Shown here one piece after another: positions 3,824 to 11,439 of a DNA stretch of 24,407 nt (the stretch's first letter is position 1; every line of letters starts with the position of its first letter). The stretch is from a virus: positions 1 to 24,407 of IMG/VR virus record IMGVR_UViG_3300017772_000122. One strand, given 5' to 3'. The position numbers and the translations under genes were made by a program. The notes below the pieces were generated by a model, which saw only the letters and a list, made by a program, of their open reading frames with translations, was not told where the DNA came from and made no database searches.

Positions 3824-4052
3824 AGCAGTTGATGAACTTATAAGGGTAGCTGAAGAAAAAATAATTATTGGGGATCCTGAGGAAGACTTGGCCGCGGATA
3901 GATTAAAAAACGCTGCCGCTACAAAAAAGTTAGCAATATTTGATGCTTTTGAAATATTAACAAGGGTAGAAACAGAAAAAAACATGCTAGAAGCATCTGA
4001 AAAAGGATCTACACAATCTTTTAAAGGTTTTGCAGAAGGCAGATCTAAATAA
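3777..4052 (+). CDS. Candidate terminase small subunit
   Basis: The product has 91 residues and is largely helical. Its core is DPEEDLAADRLKNAAATKKL followed by AIFDAFEILTRVETEKNML and a disordered Ser/Gly-rich tail (GSTQSFKGFAEGRSK). It lies immediately before the large terminase and shares a base with its start codon (TAATG at 4050-4054). This is the place and size range of a small terminase, the DNA-recognition partner that recruits the packaging motor. No helix-turn-helix can be seen clearly, so DNA binding is not shown; the assignment rests on position, size and the conserved A-A-D-x-L-K-N-A-A-A-T-K-K core I associate with marine phage genes at this position. It overlaps the preceding gene by 47 bases in another frame. 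Confidence 0.5.
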   Translation: MKDKELKQNIIQAGYKAVDELIRVAEEKIIIGDPEEDLAADRLKNAAATKKLAIFDAFEILTRVETEKNMLEASEKGSTQSFKGFAEGRSK

Positions 4053-6259
4053 TGTACGAACAAAATTTAATTAAATCCATAAGCCCCATACGTTTAAACA
4101 CAATTAAACGATTTAATAAGTTAAATAAATGGGAGTACGGGTACAATAAAGATTATGATGTAGTCATTATTAGTAAAAGTGGTAAAATAGGTGAAATTAT
4201 TGAAATACAAAATTTAAAAATTGCACTTCCTGCCTTGCCTCCTAATATGTTAAAAGAAAATAATAGATGGGTTCCACACGATTATCCAAAAGAGCTTGGC
4301 AAAATAAAAACAAGATTTGATTGGGAAACGTATCCAGACAATTTTAAAAATAAATGGTATGCATATATTGATGGAGAATTTACCAAACGCGAAGAAGGTC
4401 ATTGGTTTTATAATAAAAATACACCTACTTATATTACTGGTAGCCACTATATGTACCTGCAGTGGACCAAAATTGATGTTGGGAAGCCAGACTTCAGAGA
4501 GGCTAACAGAGTTTTCTTTATTTTCTGGGAAGCATGCAAAGCAGACTATAGGTCTTATGGAATGTGCTATCTTAAAAACCGCCGGTCGGGGTTTAGCTTT
4601 ATGTCTTCAGCAGAATCAGTCAATTTGGCAACAATTACAAAAGACGCACGGTTCGGAATATTGTCCAAATCTGGATCTGATGCTAAGAAGATGTTCACAG
4701 ACAAGGTTGTACCAATATCCCTCAACTACCCATTCTTTTTCAAACCGATACAAGACGGAATGGACAGACCAAAAACAGAGCTTGCATACAGAGTCCCAGC
4801 ATCAAAACTCACAAAAAAATCAATTGTACAAATCTCTGAAAAAAACGAACTAGAAGGATTAGATACTACTATTGACTGGAAAAATACAGGCGACAACTCA
4901 TATGATGGTGAAAAGTTAAATATTTTAGTGCATGATGAAAGCGGAAAATGGGAACGGCCTGATAACATATTAAATAATTGGCGTGTTACTAAAACAACAC
5001 TACGATTAGGTAGTAAAGTTATAGGAAAATGTATGATGGGATCAACGTCTAACTCTTTAGAAAAAGGAGGTAGTAATTTTAAAAAATTATATGATGACTC
5101 GGACGTTACTAGAAGAAACCGTAATGGGCAGACTAGCTCAGGATTATATTCTTTGTTCATACCTATGGAATGGAATTACGAAGGATTCATTGATTCTTAT
5201 GGATACCCTGTATTTGTTACGCCGGGAATTCCAATCAAAGGAAATGACGGGGCAGATATTGAAACAGGTGTTATAGATTTTTGGGAAAATGAAGTTGATG
5301 GGCTAAAGCATGATAGTGACGCCTTAAACGAATATTATAGACAATTTCCAAGAACAGAAGAGCACGCATTCCGTGACGAAGCTAAAAACAGTATATTTAA
5401 TTTAACAAAAATATACGAGCAAATAGATTACAACGAAGATTTTACAAGGAAAGGCTACGTTACAAAAGGATCGTTTTCGTGGGAAAACGGAATTAAAGAT
5501 TCAAAAGTAATATTTACACCAAATACAAACGGCCGGTTTTATGTGTCGTGGACCCCTTCTAAGAACCTAGAAAACAACGTAATACTTAAGAATGGCGCTA
5601 AATATCCTGGGAATGAACATATGGGGGCTTTTGGCTGTGACTCATACGATATTTCAGGAACAACAGATGGCCAAGGTTCTAAAGGAGCTTTACACGGATT
5701 AACTAAATTTAGTATGGAGGATTCTCCTGCTAACACATTTTTTTTAGAATATGTTGCACGCCCACAAACTGCTGAAATGTTTTTTGAAGATGTTCTCATG
5801 GCTCTGGTATATTACGGTATGCCAATTCTGGCAGAGAATAACAAGCCACGGCTATTGTATCACCTTAGACGTAGAGGCTATAGAGGATTTTCAATGAACA
5901 GACCGGATAAAGTTTGGAATAAATTATCTGTAACAGAAAGAGAAATAGGCGGAATACCAAACACATCAGAAGATATAAAGCAAGCTCACGCAGCTGCTAT
6001 AGAAACTTATATAAACAATCATGTAGGTGTTACAGAAGATGGAGGGGGTAATATATATTTTAATAGAACATTAAATGATTGGGCTAAGTTTGATATAAAC
6101 AAAAGAACAAAATATGATGCGGCAATAAGTTCTGGGCTAGCTATAATGGCATGCAATAGGCATTTATATCATCCAAAGCCAAAATCAGAAAAACAAGCAT
6201 TGAATATAAAAATTTCAAGATATAATAATAAAGGATCGCATTCAACAATAATAAAATAG
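4052..6259 (+). CDS. terL: Terminase large subunit (packaging ATPase-nuclease)
   Basis: This 735-residue protein drives DNA into the prohead and cuts the concatemer. The ATPase half shows a degenerate Walker A at residues 174-182 (LKNRRSGFS), Walker B ILVHDE at 291-296 with Asp295 and the catalytic Glu296, and the coupling motif MMGSTSN at 328-334. The nuclease half begins near GAFGCDSYD, where Asp530 and Asp533 would be the first metal-binding acids. EYVARPQTAEMFFED follows near 566, and KYDAAISSGLAIMA, with Asp689, would supply the last acid of an RNase H-like site. The protein is longer than many terminases, with an N-terminal extension of about 100 residues. It is coupled to the gene before by TAATG and separated from the portal by one base. 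Confidence 0.9.
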   Translation: MYEQNLIKSISPIRLNTIKRFNKLNKWEYGYNKDYDVVIISKSGKIGEIIEIQNLKIALPALPPNMLKENNRWVPHDYPKELGKIKTRFDWETYPDNFKNKWYAYIDGEFTKREEGHWFYNKNTPTYITGSHYMYLQWTKIDVGKPDFREANRVFFIFWEACKADYRSYGMCYLKNRRSGFSFMSSAESVNLATITKDARFGILSKSGSDAKKMFTDKVVPISLNYPFFFKPIQDGMDRPKTELAYRVPASKLTKKSIVQISEKNELEGLDTTIDWKNTGDNSYDGEKLNILVHDESGKWERPDNILNNWRVTKTTLRLGSKVIGKCMMGSTSNSLEKGGSNFKKLYDDSDVTRRNRNGQTSSGLYSLFIPMEWNYEGFIDSYGYPVFVTPGIPIKGNDGADIETGVIDFWENEVDGLKHDSDALNEYYRQFPRTEEHAFRDEAKNSIFNLTKIYEQIDYNEDFTRKGYVTKGSFSWENGIKDSKVIFTPNTNGRFYVSWTPSKNLENNVILKNGAKYPGNEHMGAFGCDSYDISGTTDGQGSKGALHGLTKFSMEDSPANTFFLEYVARPQTAEMFFEDVLMALVYYGMPILAENNKPRLLYHLRRRGYRGFSMNRPDKVWNKLSVTEREIGGIPNTSEDIKQAHAAAIETYINNHVGVTEDGGGNIYFNRTLNDWAKFDINKRTKYDAAISSGLAIMACNRHLYHPKPKSEKQALNIKISRYNNKGSHSTIIK

Positions 6260-6260
6260 C

Positions 6261-8684
6261 ATGGCGGAAACAATATTAAAGTCTTCTTTCCCGAGTCAAA
6301 TTGCTTCAGACGAAGAAAAGGCAAGCTCAGAGTACGGATTAAAAATAGCCCGCGCTATTGAGCATGAGTGGTTTAAAAGAGATTCCGGAGCAACAAGGTT
6401 TTATTCTAACAGAGACGAGTTTCATAGATTAAGATTATATGCAAGAGGAGAGCAATCTGTAAAAAAATATAAGGATGAATTATCTATTAATGGTGATTTA
6501 TCATATTTAAATTTAGATTGGAAACCAGTGCCAATTATACCCAAATTTGTAGATATAGTTGTAAATGGAATGTCTGACAGGGCTTTTGATATTAAAGCAT
6601 TTTCGCAAGACCCATCAGCTGTAAAACAGCGTTCTGAATACGTTGAAAGTATTACTCAAGATATGCAAACGCGTGAATTGAATGATGCAATACAAGAGCA
6701 GCTTGGTATAAATGTGTATAGCAACGACAAAAATAAATTACCAGAAGATGAAAATGAGCTAGCGTTACACATGCAGCTAGATTATAAACAAGCTATTGAG
6801 ATTGCAGAAGAGCAAGCAATAAATTCTATATTAAACCAAAACAATTACGAGTTAACAAAAAGGCGTATTAATTACGATTTAACGGTGCTTGGTATAGCTG
6901 CTCTAAAGAATCATTTTAATAAATCAGAAGGAATTAAAGTTGAATATGTAGATCCAGCTGATTTAGTTTATTCTTACACTTACTCCCCTTATTTTGACGA
7001 TATATATTACGTAGGAGAAGTTAAAAGTGTAACTATAAATGAACTTAAAAAACAATTCCCCGATTTAACAGATGCGGAATTAGAAAAAATAACAAAGCAA
7101 GGCGTGCAAACCGCGTCCTCTCACAATAGATATATTAATGAAGATTCAGTATTAGACGCTAATACAATTCAAGTACTTTATTTTAATTATAAAACCTATA
7201 ATAACGAAGTTTACAAAATTAAAACAACGGCTACAGGGGCTTCAAAAGCAATTGAAAAAACAGATCAATTTAACCCTCCAAAGGACCCAAGATCTCTTTT
7301 TGAAAAAGTTAGCCGATCAGTTGAAGTAGTTTATGATGGCGCGTTTGTGTTAGGCACGCAGCAAATGCTAAAATGGGAGTTGGCCAAAAATATGGTAAGG
7401 CCAAAAGCCGATACAACAAAAGTAATGATGAATTATAATGTTGTGGCTCCTAGAATATACAAAGGTAGAATAGAATCATTAGTAAGTAGAATTACAAGTT
7501 TTGCAGATATGATTCAACTGACGCATTTAAAATTACAGCAGGTCATGTCAAGAATGATACCGGATGGTGTTTACCTTGACGCAGATGGCTTAGCTGAAAT
7601 AGATTTAGGTAACGGCACTAATTATAATCCGCAGGAAGCATTGAATATGTTTTTTCAAACAGGCTCTGTTATTGGCAGATCTTTAACTGTTGACGGGGAT
7701 ATGAATCCGGGTAAAGTGCCTATTCAAGAGCTAACATCTAACGGAGGTAATAATAAAATAAGTTCTTTAATTAGCACTTATAATTATTATCTTCAAATGA
7801 TTCGCGACGTTACGGGGTTAAACGAAGCACGTGATGGTAGTGTTCCTGATCAATATGCGTTAGTAGGTGTCCAAAAATTAGCAGCTGCAAATTCTAATAC
7901 CGCAACGCGCCATATTTTACAATCTGGATTATATATCACAGCTAAAACGGCTGAGGCTGTTTCATTGCGTATATCTGATATATTAGAGTATAGCCCAACT
8001 AGAGATGCTTTTATATCTAGTATAGGCAGATTTAATGTAGGTACATTAGATGATATTAAAAACATGCACCTGCACGACTTTGGGATATTCATTGAATTGG
8101 CACCCGACGATGAAGAAAAAGCTATGCTTGAAAACAATATACAAGCGGCTTTATCTAAGGACCAAATATATTTAGAAGATGCTATTGATATTAGAGAAAT
8201 AAAAAATATTAAGTTAGCAAATCAATTGCTTAAAGTGCGTCGTAAGAAAAAGTTCCAGCAAGATAGACAGGTTCAGCAGGAGAATATTCAAATGCAAAGC
8301 CAAAGCAACGCTCAGGCAGCACAGGCGGCGGCACAAGCGGACGTTCAAAAACAACAGGCAATAACTCAACAAAAAGCAGAGTTAGCACAAATAGAGGCTA
8401 ATCTTGAAATTCAAAAACTGCAAAACGAAAAAGAGCTTAAGAAAGAACTTATGAAATATGAGTTTGATCTTAATATGGCTATTAAAGATAAAGAAGCTGA
8501 AGCGTTTACAAGTAAAGAAAAGTATAAAGAAGACAGAAAAGACGAACGAACGCGTATACAGGCTTCTCAACAGTCTCAATTAATAGAGCAAAGAAAAGAT
8601 AGAAAAGGCGAACAGGCATTTGAGTCCGCAGGTAATGATACCATGGGTAGCGGGTTTAACTTAGAAATGTTTGAACCTAGATAA
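6261..8684 (+). CDS. Portal protein
   Basis: This 807-residue protein should form the twelve-subunit ring at the head vertex through which DNA enters and leaves. The N-terminal part has LYARGEQSVKKYKDEL (about 59-74), SYLNLDWKPVPIIPKFVD (about 81-98) and NGMSDRAFDIKA. This is the W-x-P-V-P-I-I-P-K-F-V-D signature I associate with portals of marine and crAss-like podoviruses. The central stem region includes VTGLNEARDGSVPDQYALVG (about 515-535) and AAANSNTATRHI. From about residue 659 to 790 the chain becomes a long Gln/Lys/Glu/Ala-rich helix, probably a coiled barrel inside the capsid, ending in a short Gly-rich tail. It lies between terminase and scaffold, the usual place. Confidence 0.85.
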   Translation: MAETILKSSFPSQIASDEEKASSEYGLKIARAIEHEWFKRDSGATRFYSNRDEFHRLRLYARGEQSVKKYKDELSINGDLSYLNLDWKPVPIIPKFVDIVVNGMSDRAFDIKAFSQDPSAVKQRSEYVESITQDMQTRELNDAIQEQLGINVYSNDKNKLPEDENELALHMQLDYKQAIEIAEEQAINSILNQNNYELTKRRINYDLTVLGIAALKNHFNKSEGIKVEYVDPADLVYSYTYSPYFDDIYYVGEVKSVTINELKKQFPDLTDAELEKITKQGVQTASSHNRYINEDSVLDANTIQVLYFNYKTYNNEVYKIKTTATGASKAIEKTDQFNPPKDPRSLFEKVSRSVEVVYDGAFVLGTQQMLKWELAKNMVRPKADTTKVMMNYNVVAPRIYKGRIESLVSRITSFADMIQLTHLKLQQVMSRMIPDGVYLDADGLAEIDLGNGTNYNPQEALNMFFQTGSVIGRSLTVDGDMNPGKVPIQELTSNGGNNKISSLISTYNYYLQMIRDVTGLNEARDGSVPDQYALVGVQKLAAANSNTATRHILQSGLYITAKTAEAVSLRISDILEYSPTRDAFISSIGRFNVGTLDDIKNMHLHDFGIFIELAPDDEEKAMLENNIQAALSKDQIYLEDAIDIREIKNIKLANQLLKVRRKKKFQQDRQVQQENIQMQSQSNAQAAQAAAQADVQKQQAITQQKAELAQIEANLEIQKLQNEKELKKELMKYEFDLNMAIKDKEAEAFTSKEKYKEDRKDERTRIQASQQSQLIEQRKDRKGEQAFESAGNDTMGSGFNLEMFEPR

Positions 8685-8696
8685 TAAAACCCGTTT

Positions 8697-8720
8697 TTAA
8701 TTTTATAATATTTTATCATG
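8697..8720 (+). promoter_or_regulatory. A/T-only leader element, copy 1 (before scaffold gene)
   Basis: The 24 bases ending in the scaffold ATG match the 24 bases ending in the ATG at 11518 at 22 of 24 positions; the shared end is TATCATG. No Shine-Dalgarno is present. The copy contains TATAAT, which could act as a promoter -10 for some polymerases, but no matching -35 or Bacteroidota-type TAnnTTTG is present. It may be a translation initiation leader or a late-promoter element; A/T-rich composition makes chance similarity a real alternative. Confidence 0.35.
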
Positions 8721-9947
8721 TCAGAAGAAACAAAAGAGCAGGAAGTAGTTCAAGAAGTACAAGAAGCTACACCTGAAACACAAGAGTCAAAACCAGCTAC
8801 AACAGTTGATGAAGACGGAACAATTAAAATAGATTTACGAAACTTTACAGAAGATGCCGTTCAAGAGCAAAGCACAGATGAGGTTCCTGTACGCGACGAG
8901 CCCGAAGCTAGCGGAGAAGTACAAGAACAAAACGTCGAACAAACAGATGAGCAGTCTGCCAGAGAAAGTGAGCCCAATAACGAAGAGGGCCCAGTGCTCG
9001 AACTCGTCCAAGACGAAGAGGCAGAAGAACCAGCAACATTAGCTGATAAAATAAAAGATATTCCAAATAAGCTTAAAGAAGAATCTGAAAGCGTAAATAA
9101 TAATCAAGAGCCTGAGCGTGAGCTACCTGAGAATATAGATAAGCTAGTACAGTTTATGGAAGAAACAGGTGGAACGGTCGAGGACTACGTAAATCTTAAT
9201 AAAGATTATGACGAGATGGCAGACATGGATCTGCTTAAAGAATATTACCGCCAATCAAAACCACATTTATCAGCAGATGAAGTTGACTTCTTAATTGAAG
9301 ATAACTTTTCTTATGATGAAGAAGTGGATGAGGAGCGTGATATAAGACGTAAAAAACTAGCATTTAAAGAATCAATTGCTGAAGCTAAATCAAATCTTAA
9401 TAACCTTAGGGGGAAATATTACGAAGATCTTAAGTTAAGTTCTAAGTTAACCTCCGAGCAACGAGAAGCGGTTGAGTTTTACAACGATTATAAACAAGAT
9501 CAAGATTCACAAACAAAAGTGGTTGAACAACAAAGATCTATATTTGAACAAAAAACAAATGAATTGTTTTCCGAAAATTTCAAAGGTTTTGATTTTAAAG
9601 TAGGGCAAAACAAATATAGATTTAAAGTTAAAGATGTAAACAATGTAAAAGAATCGCAGACTGATATTAATTCATTAGTTGAAAAGTTTGTCAACGAAAA
9701 TAATGAAATGTCAGATGCTGCCGGTTACCATAAAGCATTATTTACAGCTATGAATGCCGACGCTGTTGCTAATCATTTTTATGAGCAAGGACGTGCAGAT
9801 GCACTAAAAACGCAAATGTCTAAATCAAAAAATATTGATATGGACCCGCGGTCAACTCATGAAAAAGTTACAACAACTTCAGGTATGCAGGTTCGAGCTG
9901 TTAGCGGAGATGATATTGATCGATTAAGAATTAAAATTAAAAAATAA
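8718..9947 (+). CDS. Capsid scaffold protein
   Basis: The product has 409 residues, strongly acidic and mostly predicted helical or disordered, with almost no aromatic core before residue 150. The first ~130 residues are Glu/Gln/Pro/Thr-rich low complexity. The middle (about 140-300) holds helices such as LVQFMEETGGTVEDYVNLN, KEYYRQSKPHLSADEVDFL and EREAVEFYNDYKQDQD. The C-terminus is basic (IDRLRIKIKK), as expected for a scaffold tail that contacts capsid subunits. Position between portal and major capsid protein and the acidic helical composition are the classic marks of a scaffold, which guides shell assembly and then leaves. Residues 46-108 are overlapped by another frame at 8854-9042, and in this stretch codon choice is unusual (ctc, gtc, ccc, cgc, agc). 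Confidence 0.75.
   Translation: MSEETKEQEVVQEVQEATPETQESKPATTVDEDGTIKIDLRNFTEDAVQEQSTDEVPVRDEPEASGEVQEQNVEQTDEQSARESEPNNEEGPVLELVQDEEAEEPATLADKIKDIPNKLKEESESVNNNQEPERELPENIDKLVQFMEETGGTVEDYVNLNKDYDEMADMDLLKEYYRQSKPHLSADEVDFLIEDNFSYDEEVDEERDIRRKKLAFKESIAEAKSNLNNLRGKYYEDLKLSSKLTSEQREAVEFYNDYKQDQDSQTKVVEQQRSIFEQKTNELFSENFKGFDFKVGQNKYRFKVKDVNNVKESQTDINSLVEKFVNENNEMSDAAGYHKALFTAMNADAVANHFYEQGRADALKTQMSKSKNIDMDPRSTHEKVTTTSGMQVRAVSGDDIDRLRIKIKK
8854..9042 (+). CDS. Overprinted small protein, MPxKSKAQxRFxxA ... LPEKV family
   Basis: This 62-codon frame lies wholly inside the scaffold gene, shifted +1. The product starts MPFKSKAQMRFLYATSPKLA, continues EKYKNKTSNKQMSSLPEKV (to about residue 39) and ends in a Lys/Arg/Ser/Gln-rich tail. 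Both the N-terminal KSKAQMRF segment and the following LPEKV are hallmarks, in the right order and spacing, of a widespread family of very short phage and bacterial proteins of unknown function (some members, I believe, annotated DUF3008). A chance frame would not be expected to reproduce them. It is basic while the scaffold segment it overlaps is acidic, because Lys AAG followed by AA reads GAA (Glu) in the scaffold frame. No Shine-Dalgarno precedes the ATG, as everywhere else here. Expression is not shown. Confidence 0.7.
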   Translation: MPFKSKAQMRFLYATSPKLAEKYKNKTSNKQMSSLPEKVSPITKRAQCSNSSKTKRQKNQQH

Positions 9948-9966: not shown

Positions 9967-11439
9967 ATGGGATTATTTTCAACAGGCGGGGCGTTTCCAG
10001 CTGGATTAACACCTGCGCCAACCAAATCATTATTTGGTACTAACTATTTAACTTTCGACTCTGCAACAGGGGGAGGAACTTTTGCACAACAATTTTTACC
10101 AGACGTATACGAAAAAGAAGTAGAGCGTTACGGAAATCGCTCTGTAGCTTCTTTCTTGCGTATGGTAGGGGCTGAAATTCCTTCTGCTTCAGATCAAGTA
10201 ATTTGGTCAGAGCAAGGAAGATTACACATTGCTTATGATAGTGCATCTGCAAACACTACAACTGGTGTGATTACCGAAAACGGGCACGCTGTACGAGTAG
10301 GACAAACAGTAGCTATTATTGAGGCTGGAACACACCCGAATGACGGTGTAACTTGGACTGCTGACAAAGTAGTTAAAGGTGTTGTATCTGCTGCAGATGC
10401 TAACACATTTACTGTACTTGCTTATGGAGGCGCTACTCTAACTGCTGCTGGATTAACTTCTGGAACTGGTGTATCTGTTAAGGTATTCGTATATGGTTCT
10501 GAATTTAAGAAAGGTACTGCTGGAATGGATGGATCAGTTGATGCTGGATTTCAACAGTTTTCTAACTCACCAATTATCATCAAAGACAAATATAATATTT
10601 CTGGATCTGATGTTGCACAAATTGGATGGGTTGAAGTAACTACTGAAAACGGAGCTTCTGGATATTTATGGTACTTAAAGTCTGAGCACGAAACACGCTT
10701 ACGCTTTGAGGATTACTTAGAAATGTCAATGGTAGAAGGTGAACTTGCTGCTACTGGGTCTGGTGCTATTGGTGCTAGCTTTAAAGGTACTGAAGGTTTA
10801 TTTGCTGCTATAGAATCTAGAGGTAATATTTATCAAAACTTCAACTCAGGTGAGGACGCATTAGATAACTCTGATGGAGGTGCTCGCGGTGGTTTAGGAG
10901 ATTTTGATGAAATCTTAAAGAACTTAGACAAGCAAGGTGCTATCGAAGAAAACATGTTATTCTTAAATCGTGCGACTGCATTGACTTTTGATGATATGCT
11001 CGGGGCTGTTAATGCGCACTATAATGGTGGTACTTCTTATGGAGTATTTAACAACGAAGAGGACATGGCATTAAATCTTGGATTTAGTGGATTCCGTAGA
11101 GGTTCTTATGACTTTTACAAAACTGACTGGAAATATTTAAATGATGCAACAACTCGCGGGTTAGGCGGAAACATTGATGGTATCTTAGTGCCAGCAGGTA
11201 CTTCAACTGTATACGATCAACAACTTGGTAAAAATATCAAGCGTCCATTTTTACACGTGCGTTATCGTGCTTCTGAAGCTGATGATAGAAAAATGAAGTC
11301 TTGGATCACTGGATCTGTGGGCGGAGTTTATACTTCTGACGTTGATGAAATGAATGTACACTTCTTATCAGAAAGATGTTTATGCGTTCAAGGAGCTAAC
11401 AACTTCGTATTATTTAAGACTGCTTCTCAAGTAGCTTAA
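9967..11439 (+). CDS. Major capsid protein
   Basis: The product has 490 residues. The start MGLFSTGGAFPAGLTP is followed by an N-terminal arm, then FLPDVYEKEVERYGNRSVASF (about 43-63), a helix-rich start typical of HK97-fold shells. Residues about 108-172 form a beta-rich insertion (VRVGQTVAI to VKVFVYG). The spine-helix region GYLWYLKSEHETRLRFEDYLEMSMVEGE lies at about 231-258. The C-terminal part ends VDEMNVHFLSERCLCVQGAN and NFVLFKTASQ. Length, position after the scaffold and this layout support the assignment. Codon use differs from neighbours: 13 of 18 Arg codons are CGN, against mostly AGA elsewhere, as expected for the most highly expressed virion gene. A hairpin terminator follows 18 bases later. 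Confidence 0.85.
   Translation: MGLFSTGGAFPAGLTPAPTKSLFGTNYLTFDSATGGGTFAQQFLPDVYEKEVERYGNRSVASFLRMVGAEIPSASDQVIWSEQGRLHIAYDSASANTTTGVITENGHAVRVGQTVAIIEAGTHPNDGVTWTADKVVKGVVSAADANTFTVLAYGGATLTAAGLTSGTGVSVKVFVYGSEFKKGTAGMDGSVDAGFQQFSNSPIIIKDKYNISGSDVAQIGWVEVTTENGASGYLWYLKSEHETRLRFEDYLEMSMVEGELAATGSGAIGASFKGTEGLFAAIESRGNIYQNFNSGEDALDNSDGGARGGLGDFDEILKNLDKQGAIEENMLFLNRATALTFDDMLGAVNAHYNGGTSYGVFNNEEDMALNLGFSGFRRGSYDFYKTDWKYLNDATTRGLGGNIDGILVPAGTSTVYDQQLGKNIKRPFLHVRYRASEADDRKMKSWITGSVGGVYTSDVDEMNVHFLSERCLCVQGANNFVLFKTASQVA

Follow-up and report, generated by a model that had tools for sequence, protein, structure and literature searches.

It is very likely that positions 8854-9042 of the 24.4-kb virus record analyzed here as a whole (hereinafter the window) form a genuine dual-coding gene, in which a small protein is encoded one base out of register inside the gene for a putative scaffold protein, and that the family of this small protein is repeatedly nested in other genes. 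The late genes of the window follow the order terminase large subunit, portal, putative scaffold, probable major capsid protein and other virion genes (Table 1). The 8718-9947 product is considered a putative scaffold protein on the basis of synteny, its gene being located between those for the portal and the major capsid protein. In searches of Pfam and PHROGs this product had no significant match, to a scaffold family included, whereas the portal and capsid neighbours do have matches; the homologue of this protein in Elemovirus is annotated as "structural protein". The scaffold protein family appears to be undescribed.

Table 1. Late genes of the window and parts of the nested locus
Feature	Position	Strand	Basis or remarks
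Terminase large subunit gene	4052..6259	+	phrog_6681
Portal protein gene	6261..8684	+	phrog_6547
Putative scaffold gene, 409 aa, host of the nest	8718..9947	+	ATG ORF; role from synteny; homologues found
Start context of the nested ATG, A-rich	8830..8853	+	compared across 92 distinct contexts
Scaffold codons 46-83, "shadow" of the small core, acidic, DAVQEQSTDEVPVRDEPEASGEVQEQN...	8853..8966	+	sequence evolution imposed by the small gene
Nested small gene, 62 codons, ATG...TAG	8854..9042	+	+1 relative to the scaffold frame; relatives found
Conserved core of the small protein, residues 1-38, MPFKSKAQMRFLYATSPKLAEKYKNKTSNKQMSSLPEK	8854..8967	+	inverted codon-position conservation, pN/pS 0.22, AlphaFold2
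C-terminal tail of the small protein (residues 39-62), variable and without constraint	8968..9039	+	lengths of relatives, selection pattern, AlphaFold2
Probable major capsid protein gene	9967..11439	+	phrog_13704, "virion structural protein"

A sequence-only reading of the window had described a 62-codon ATG-to-TAG frame, +1 in the scaffold ORF, which is present exactly as described, and both segments quoted from its 62-aa product, MPFKSKAQMRF and SNKQMSSLPEKV, are found there. The length of the ORF was rejected as evidence for a gene, given that a +1 ATG ORF of at least 62 codons appears in 23.5% of the synonymous-codon shuffles of the scaffold gene (P about 0.24). Such a length is unsurprising because GAA-rich text is AAG-rich and stop-poor when read one base on. 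The scaffold-nested relatives of the small protein span 38-59 aa, with the nearest ones ending at 56-57 aa, and the 62-residue length is peculiar to the window among the scaffold-nested copies.

The proposal of a conserved small phage protein whose gene lies +1 within that of the scaffold is borne out by comparison with related phages. With the scaffold, capsid and small proteins plus a small-protein profile as queries, relatives of the small ORF were detected +1 in the scaffold ORF at 147 of the 148 loci with a match (counts that include near-copies); only at L208 is this not so, the scaffold ORF being broken there. After the removal of identical genes, nested relatives are present in 126 of the 198 distinct scaffold CDS, always in the +1 frame.

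Over the core, that is, the first 38 codons of the small gene, differences per codon at scaffold positions 1, 2 and 3 amount to 0.209, 0.115 and 0.089, respectively, compared to 0.169, 0.099 and 0.370 in the scaffold sequence downstream of the core. The wobble base of the scaffold codons, which is the second base of the small-gene codons, is the most conserved position over the core, an inversion of the downstream pattern. Synonymous variation in the scaffold frame, the measure that had been suggested as a check on dual coding, is strongly lowered across the core (0.038 vs 0.249 downstream, about a 6.5-fold drop) and reaches its minimum at the start of the small gene: the 38-codon segment with the least synonymous change in the entire scaffold gene begins at codon 45-46, and the small ATG falls at codon 46. 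In these comparisons, which are pairwise with weighted pairs as distinct from a full likelihood test, pN/pS is 0.22 for the small frame, 1.7 for the scaffold frame of the same core bases and 0.21 for the downstream scaffold. Together with the position pattern, these ratios indicate that it is the small protein that is constrained in the overlap, with the scaffold sequence following it. The unusual codon usage noticed in the overlap is real as well, with C-ending codons making up 26% of the scaffold codons there vs 9% elsewhere. The constraint is limited to about 38-40 residues, and the sequence beyond residue 38 behaves as single-coding, so that the claim of dual coding across the whole of 8854-9042 holds for the first ~40 residues but not for the unconstrained tail. 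When the small core (first 38 codons) was recoded at random with synonymous codons, the scaffold frame was open in 0 of 20,000 trials, and the frame equivalent to that of the host gene (the shadow frame) carries stops in 45 of 47 free-standing copies of the family, which indicates that an open scaffold frame is maintained.

These patterns bear on the view that the +1 frame is an untranslated compositional shadow of the GAA-rich acidic scaffold sequence. The frequency of equally long ORFs among the shuffles is what this view would lead one to expect; however, conservation tracks the small frame while the scaffold frame is relaxed, and free-standing homologues of like sequence exist in unrelated phages, with the shadow frame interrupted by stops in most of these copies. 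The selection patterns thus refute compositional shadow as a full explanation and reduce it to an account of the ORF length and the lysine-rich tail; that nothing else is encoded here is extremely improbable. Suppression of synonymous change could likewise be caused by a DNA site, and a conserved nucleic-acid element, such as a packaging site, a regulatory RNA or a recombination site, would be in keeping with a segment that is exchanged and located in late genes. The variation is, however, concentrated at the third positions of the small frame, as is the case for protein-coding sequence, diverged copies retain common amino acids, the same protein is the product of free copies in other locations, and the core has a confidently predicted fold, all of which leaves this alternative with hardly any probability.

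The translated product would be a basic, helical protein of about 40 aa beginning with MPFKSxxQ and read from its own internal ATG. In 49 diverse members of the family, M1, P2, S5, Q8, P17 and A20 are invariant. AlphaFold2 predicts three short helices (residues 6-15, 17-26 and 29-33), with block pLDDT of 90-97 over residues 1-40 and low confidence for the tail. The description of this product as a member of a known small-protein family holds in part: there is no family for it in Pfam or NCBIfam, but PHROGs yields a weak match to phrog_1375 (function unassigned; E 0.0018, 19.6 bits, residues 3-28), and 8 of 10 tested subfamily members match the same family over the N-terminal core with E from 1e-4 to 0.08 (best 9e-5). 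A Foldseek search of the PDB with the model of the small protein returned nothing, and the matches among viral models, with E of 0.01 or worse, were only small uncharacterised phage proteins, for example, those of mycobacteriophage Barnyard and Pseudomonas phage Phabio. Sequence matches to designed "Cake" repeat propellers in the PDB were discarded as false, each stretch scoring below 8 bits and only the repetition adding up. At the same scaffold site, other phages carry the subfamilies KSKKQQAWMW, QSKKQMQWM, NKAQMQAMILSNNP and SEKQRRYLW. The MPFKSxxQ domain also forms the N-terminus of larger proteins of 183-507 aa (L269, L279, L307, L310, L325, L327 and L328), the inspection of which revealed no function.

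Translation of the nested gene would start independently at the internal ATG of the late mRNA, as suggested by the conservation of this ATG next to an unconserved upstream frame. Across 92 distinct contexts no Shine-Dalgarno-like motif is conserved upstream of the nested ATG; A-rich upstream bases without a Shine-Dalgarno sequence would suit initiation of the Bacteroidota type, and the cultured relatives of the window phage point to a Bacteroidota-type host. A different route to the same frame would be ribosomal frameshifting into +1, with a fusion of the scaffold N-terminus and the small protein as the product, and indeed the nested frame is typically open for 4-9 codons 5' of its ATG. Against this possibility, which appears very unlikely, the ATG and the MPFK sequence are near-invariant in all contexts while the distance to the upstream stop varies, free copies start at the same methionine, and no conserved slippery context was noticed.

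Outside the scaffold gene, the family is free-standing in many phages and prophage-like contigs, in which the copies adjoin terminase, portal, capsid and tail-sheath genes among others (a descriptive observation with no background rate). Two of the free copies (L222:4001-4129 and L230:4001-4129) lie immediately 5' of two ORFs, one of 65 aa and one terminase-like. The family is also nested, again +1, in long ORFs of several kinds that are unrelated to the scaffold and range from 1,000 to 2,900 aa, or up to 3,900 aa when the giant genes of the relatives described below are counted as well (nested copies in giant ORFs: L261, L273, L283, L288, L290, L295, L299, L303, L304, L311, L322, L337, L248, L250 and L259). 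Some of these giant hosts match phrog_11358 (function unassigned) and one contains DUF3293. The giant-gene shadow always begins with N/D/Y, A, V/I/L and Q, and it has the character of a hydrophilic linker with many Q, E, P and G residues. Among relatives of two giants, the nested ORF is present at 7 of 7 loci, and in diverged pairs of giant genes the position-3 differences are 0.05-0.13 in the core vs 0.44-0.48 elsewhere, which replicates the inversion seen in the scaffold gene. Nested calls in ORFs of 99-186 aa and in the 701-aa ORF of L266/L267 were set aside because several frames are open in some of these stretches and the host ORFs might be spurious.

The free-standing homologues in unrelated phages agree with the earlier suggestion that the small family predates the nest. 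The second part of that suggestion, namely that the acidic, disordered stretch of the scaffold protein was born over the small gene, finds no support in the scaffolds that lack a nest, which are equally acidic: D and E account for 32.7% of the first 110 aa in scaffolds without the nest and for 31.9% in those with it. The acidic linker was thus not created by the nest but accommodates it, and judging from these comparisons the small gene dictates only the exact sequence of the linker across the nest, the acidic region existing regardless. The region preceding the scaffold core has median lengths of 145 and 139 residues in nested scaffolds vs 117 in those without a nest, that is, about 22-28 residues more, which fits with insertion into, or replacement within, a linker that was already acidic. 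The scaffold core itself (residues about 135-409) is common to scaffolds without the nest and in this sense is older than the nest, as would be expected under classical overprinting, with the small protein born de novo on the older scaffold frame. Such an origin seems very improbable, however, since the family is free-standing and present in unrelated genes of diverse phages and hence is not scaffold-born. As judged by the distribution of homologues, neither gene is newborn; the small family and the scaffold are both older than the nest.

Comparison of relatives further indicates that gains, swaps and losses of the nested gene have recurred among closely related phages. When mapped onto a 180-phage portal tree, the state of the nest requires 30 changes (16 for presence/absence), an approximate count given that this is a FastTree phylogeny of a recombining group. 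Here, "absent" denotes sequences unmatched by the profile or the MPFK pattern, so that diverged nested ORFs may be missed. The state of the nest differs even between near neighbours on this tree. In L092 compared with L112, the small frame has decayed by point changes and the scaffold is intact; in L027, 18 bases that span the small start in L018 are missing; and in three pairs (L150/L151, L146/L153 and L119/L116) the segment differs by replacement or in-frame deletion. In L255 (5001-5066), the nested frame stops after 22 residues with the scaffold frame open, a natural loss. Stops in close relatives with an intact scaffold frame, which the sequence-only reading had held to speak against dual coding, therefore do occur (L255, L092 and others), as scattered losses amid conservation. 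Many scaffold relatives lack the nested ORF or have it only in broken form, and it therefore does not appear to be essential. Each of the 20 contigs with a scaffold nest that were inspected (20/20) has exactly one clear copy, and one contig contains a second, marginal match of 15 residues.

Among the cultured or complete relatives of the window phage, the cultured Flavobacterium Elemovirus MT497071 and also MW202828 have scaffolds without a nest, and in each a single copy was detected elsewhere. In MT497071, the copy is +1 in a 3,695-codon "structural protein" gene (CDS 48718-59802, with DUF3293) and represents a divergent subfamily, MPFKSKAQMKACYSQDNPKWDCKKW...; in MW202828, it is +1 in a giant gene of 3,860 codons. 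It took profile searching of entire records to detect the nested copies of Elemovirus; 68 Elemovirus records contain the gene. The nested gene is the sole stretch that aligns in a blastn comparison of 900 bp of the Elemovirus giant gene with MW202828. A tblastn search of cultured phages with the copy from the window gave a single weak match, to a free-standing copy, and one with the 39-aa consensus gave none. Neither the MT497071.1 copy at 52379-52507 (L348, L359) nor that of MW202828.1 at 9593-9724 (L349, L360) is annotated in the respective record. With a scaffold copy in the window and giant-gene copies in its relatives, the host gene has changed within one related phage group; this change may have occurred by movement, by exchange with other phages, or by loss and regain.

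Taken together, the observations are best described by a small gene that moves from one host gene to another or is swapped between them, each genome having a single clear copy. Across phage groups, this family would repeatedly move between free sites and out-of-frame linkers of unrelated late genes, with its codons held such that the host frame stays open as an acidic linker and with the passenger missed by gene callers; we assign this reading a probability of roughly 0.6. In the window, the small gene and the scaffold gene would both have existed beforehand, the former coming to lie in an N-terminal scaffold linker that was flexible and already acidic. The lysine-rich codons of the small gene would read in the -1 frame as stop-free text rich in D, E, Q, S and V (AAG.AAG giving GAA), which would be why the linker tolerates this gene. 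As to function, position, charge and neighbours prompt the tentative guess that the small protein is a non-essential accessory of late head assembly or DNA packaging, and that it possibly binds nucleic acid or an acidic partner; it may instead have a host-directed or defence-related role. The many natural gains, swaps and losses amount to a replicated natural experiment on the origin of overlapping genes and on disordered linkers that hold a second message, and the cultured carriers (Elemovirus on Flavobacterium, as in the pair with Flavobacterium sp. BAL314) make the nested gene testable.

Among known systems, the nearest described family is phrog_1375, matched weakly and partially over the N-terminal core, for which no described nested location was found; nor did literature searches on the motif, on nested phage scaffold genes and on the description of Elemovirus yield an account of this nest. 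The giant gene of Elemovirus (MT497071) resembles the window in carrying the same small family +1 and differs from it in that the host is a giant structural gene and the small protein a divergent subfamily. In the lambda-type spanin pair, Rz1 is wholly inside Rz in the +1 frame, other arrangements being found in other phages (PMC6139136), and the window has in common with such embedded pairs a small phage gene wholly inside another, +1. Unlike Rz1, a lysis lipoprotein encoded inside its functional partner Rz, the small protein described here is basic and helical, and its hosts, the scaffold and several giants, are mutually unrelated; by inspection, MPFKSKAQMRF... has neither the hydrophobic signal nor the lipobox of an Rz1-type o-spanin, and its host gene, situated between portal and capsid genes, is not an i-spanin gene. 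Widely used gene-calling programs disfavour nested genes, as noted for spanins (PMC6139136), and the present family is for this reason probably a conserved phage gene family missing from many annotations. With viral genes overprinted de novo (PMC8227390), the locus shares a same-strand overlap of two frames, in this case with one acidic, low-complexity product and one basic product. The difference from that process, in which one frame is newborn and its product lacks homologues outside the overlap, is that both genes have older homologues elsewhere, free-standing ones in the case of the small protein. The usual account of nested genes places a new protein atop an old one; here, an old gene has become lodged on more than one occasion in genes that are themselves old, and each time its frame relative to theirs is the same.
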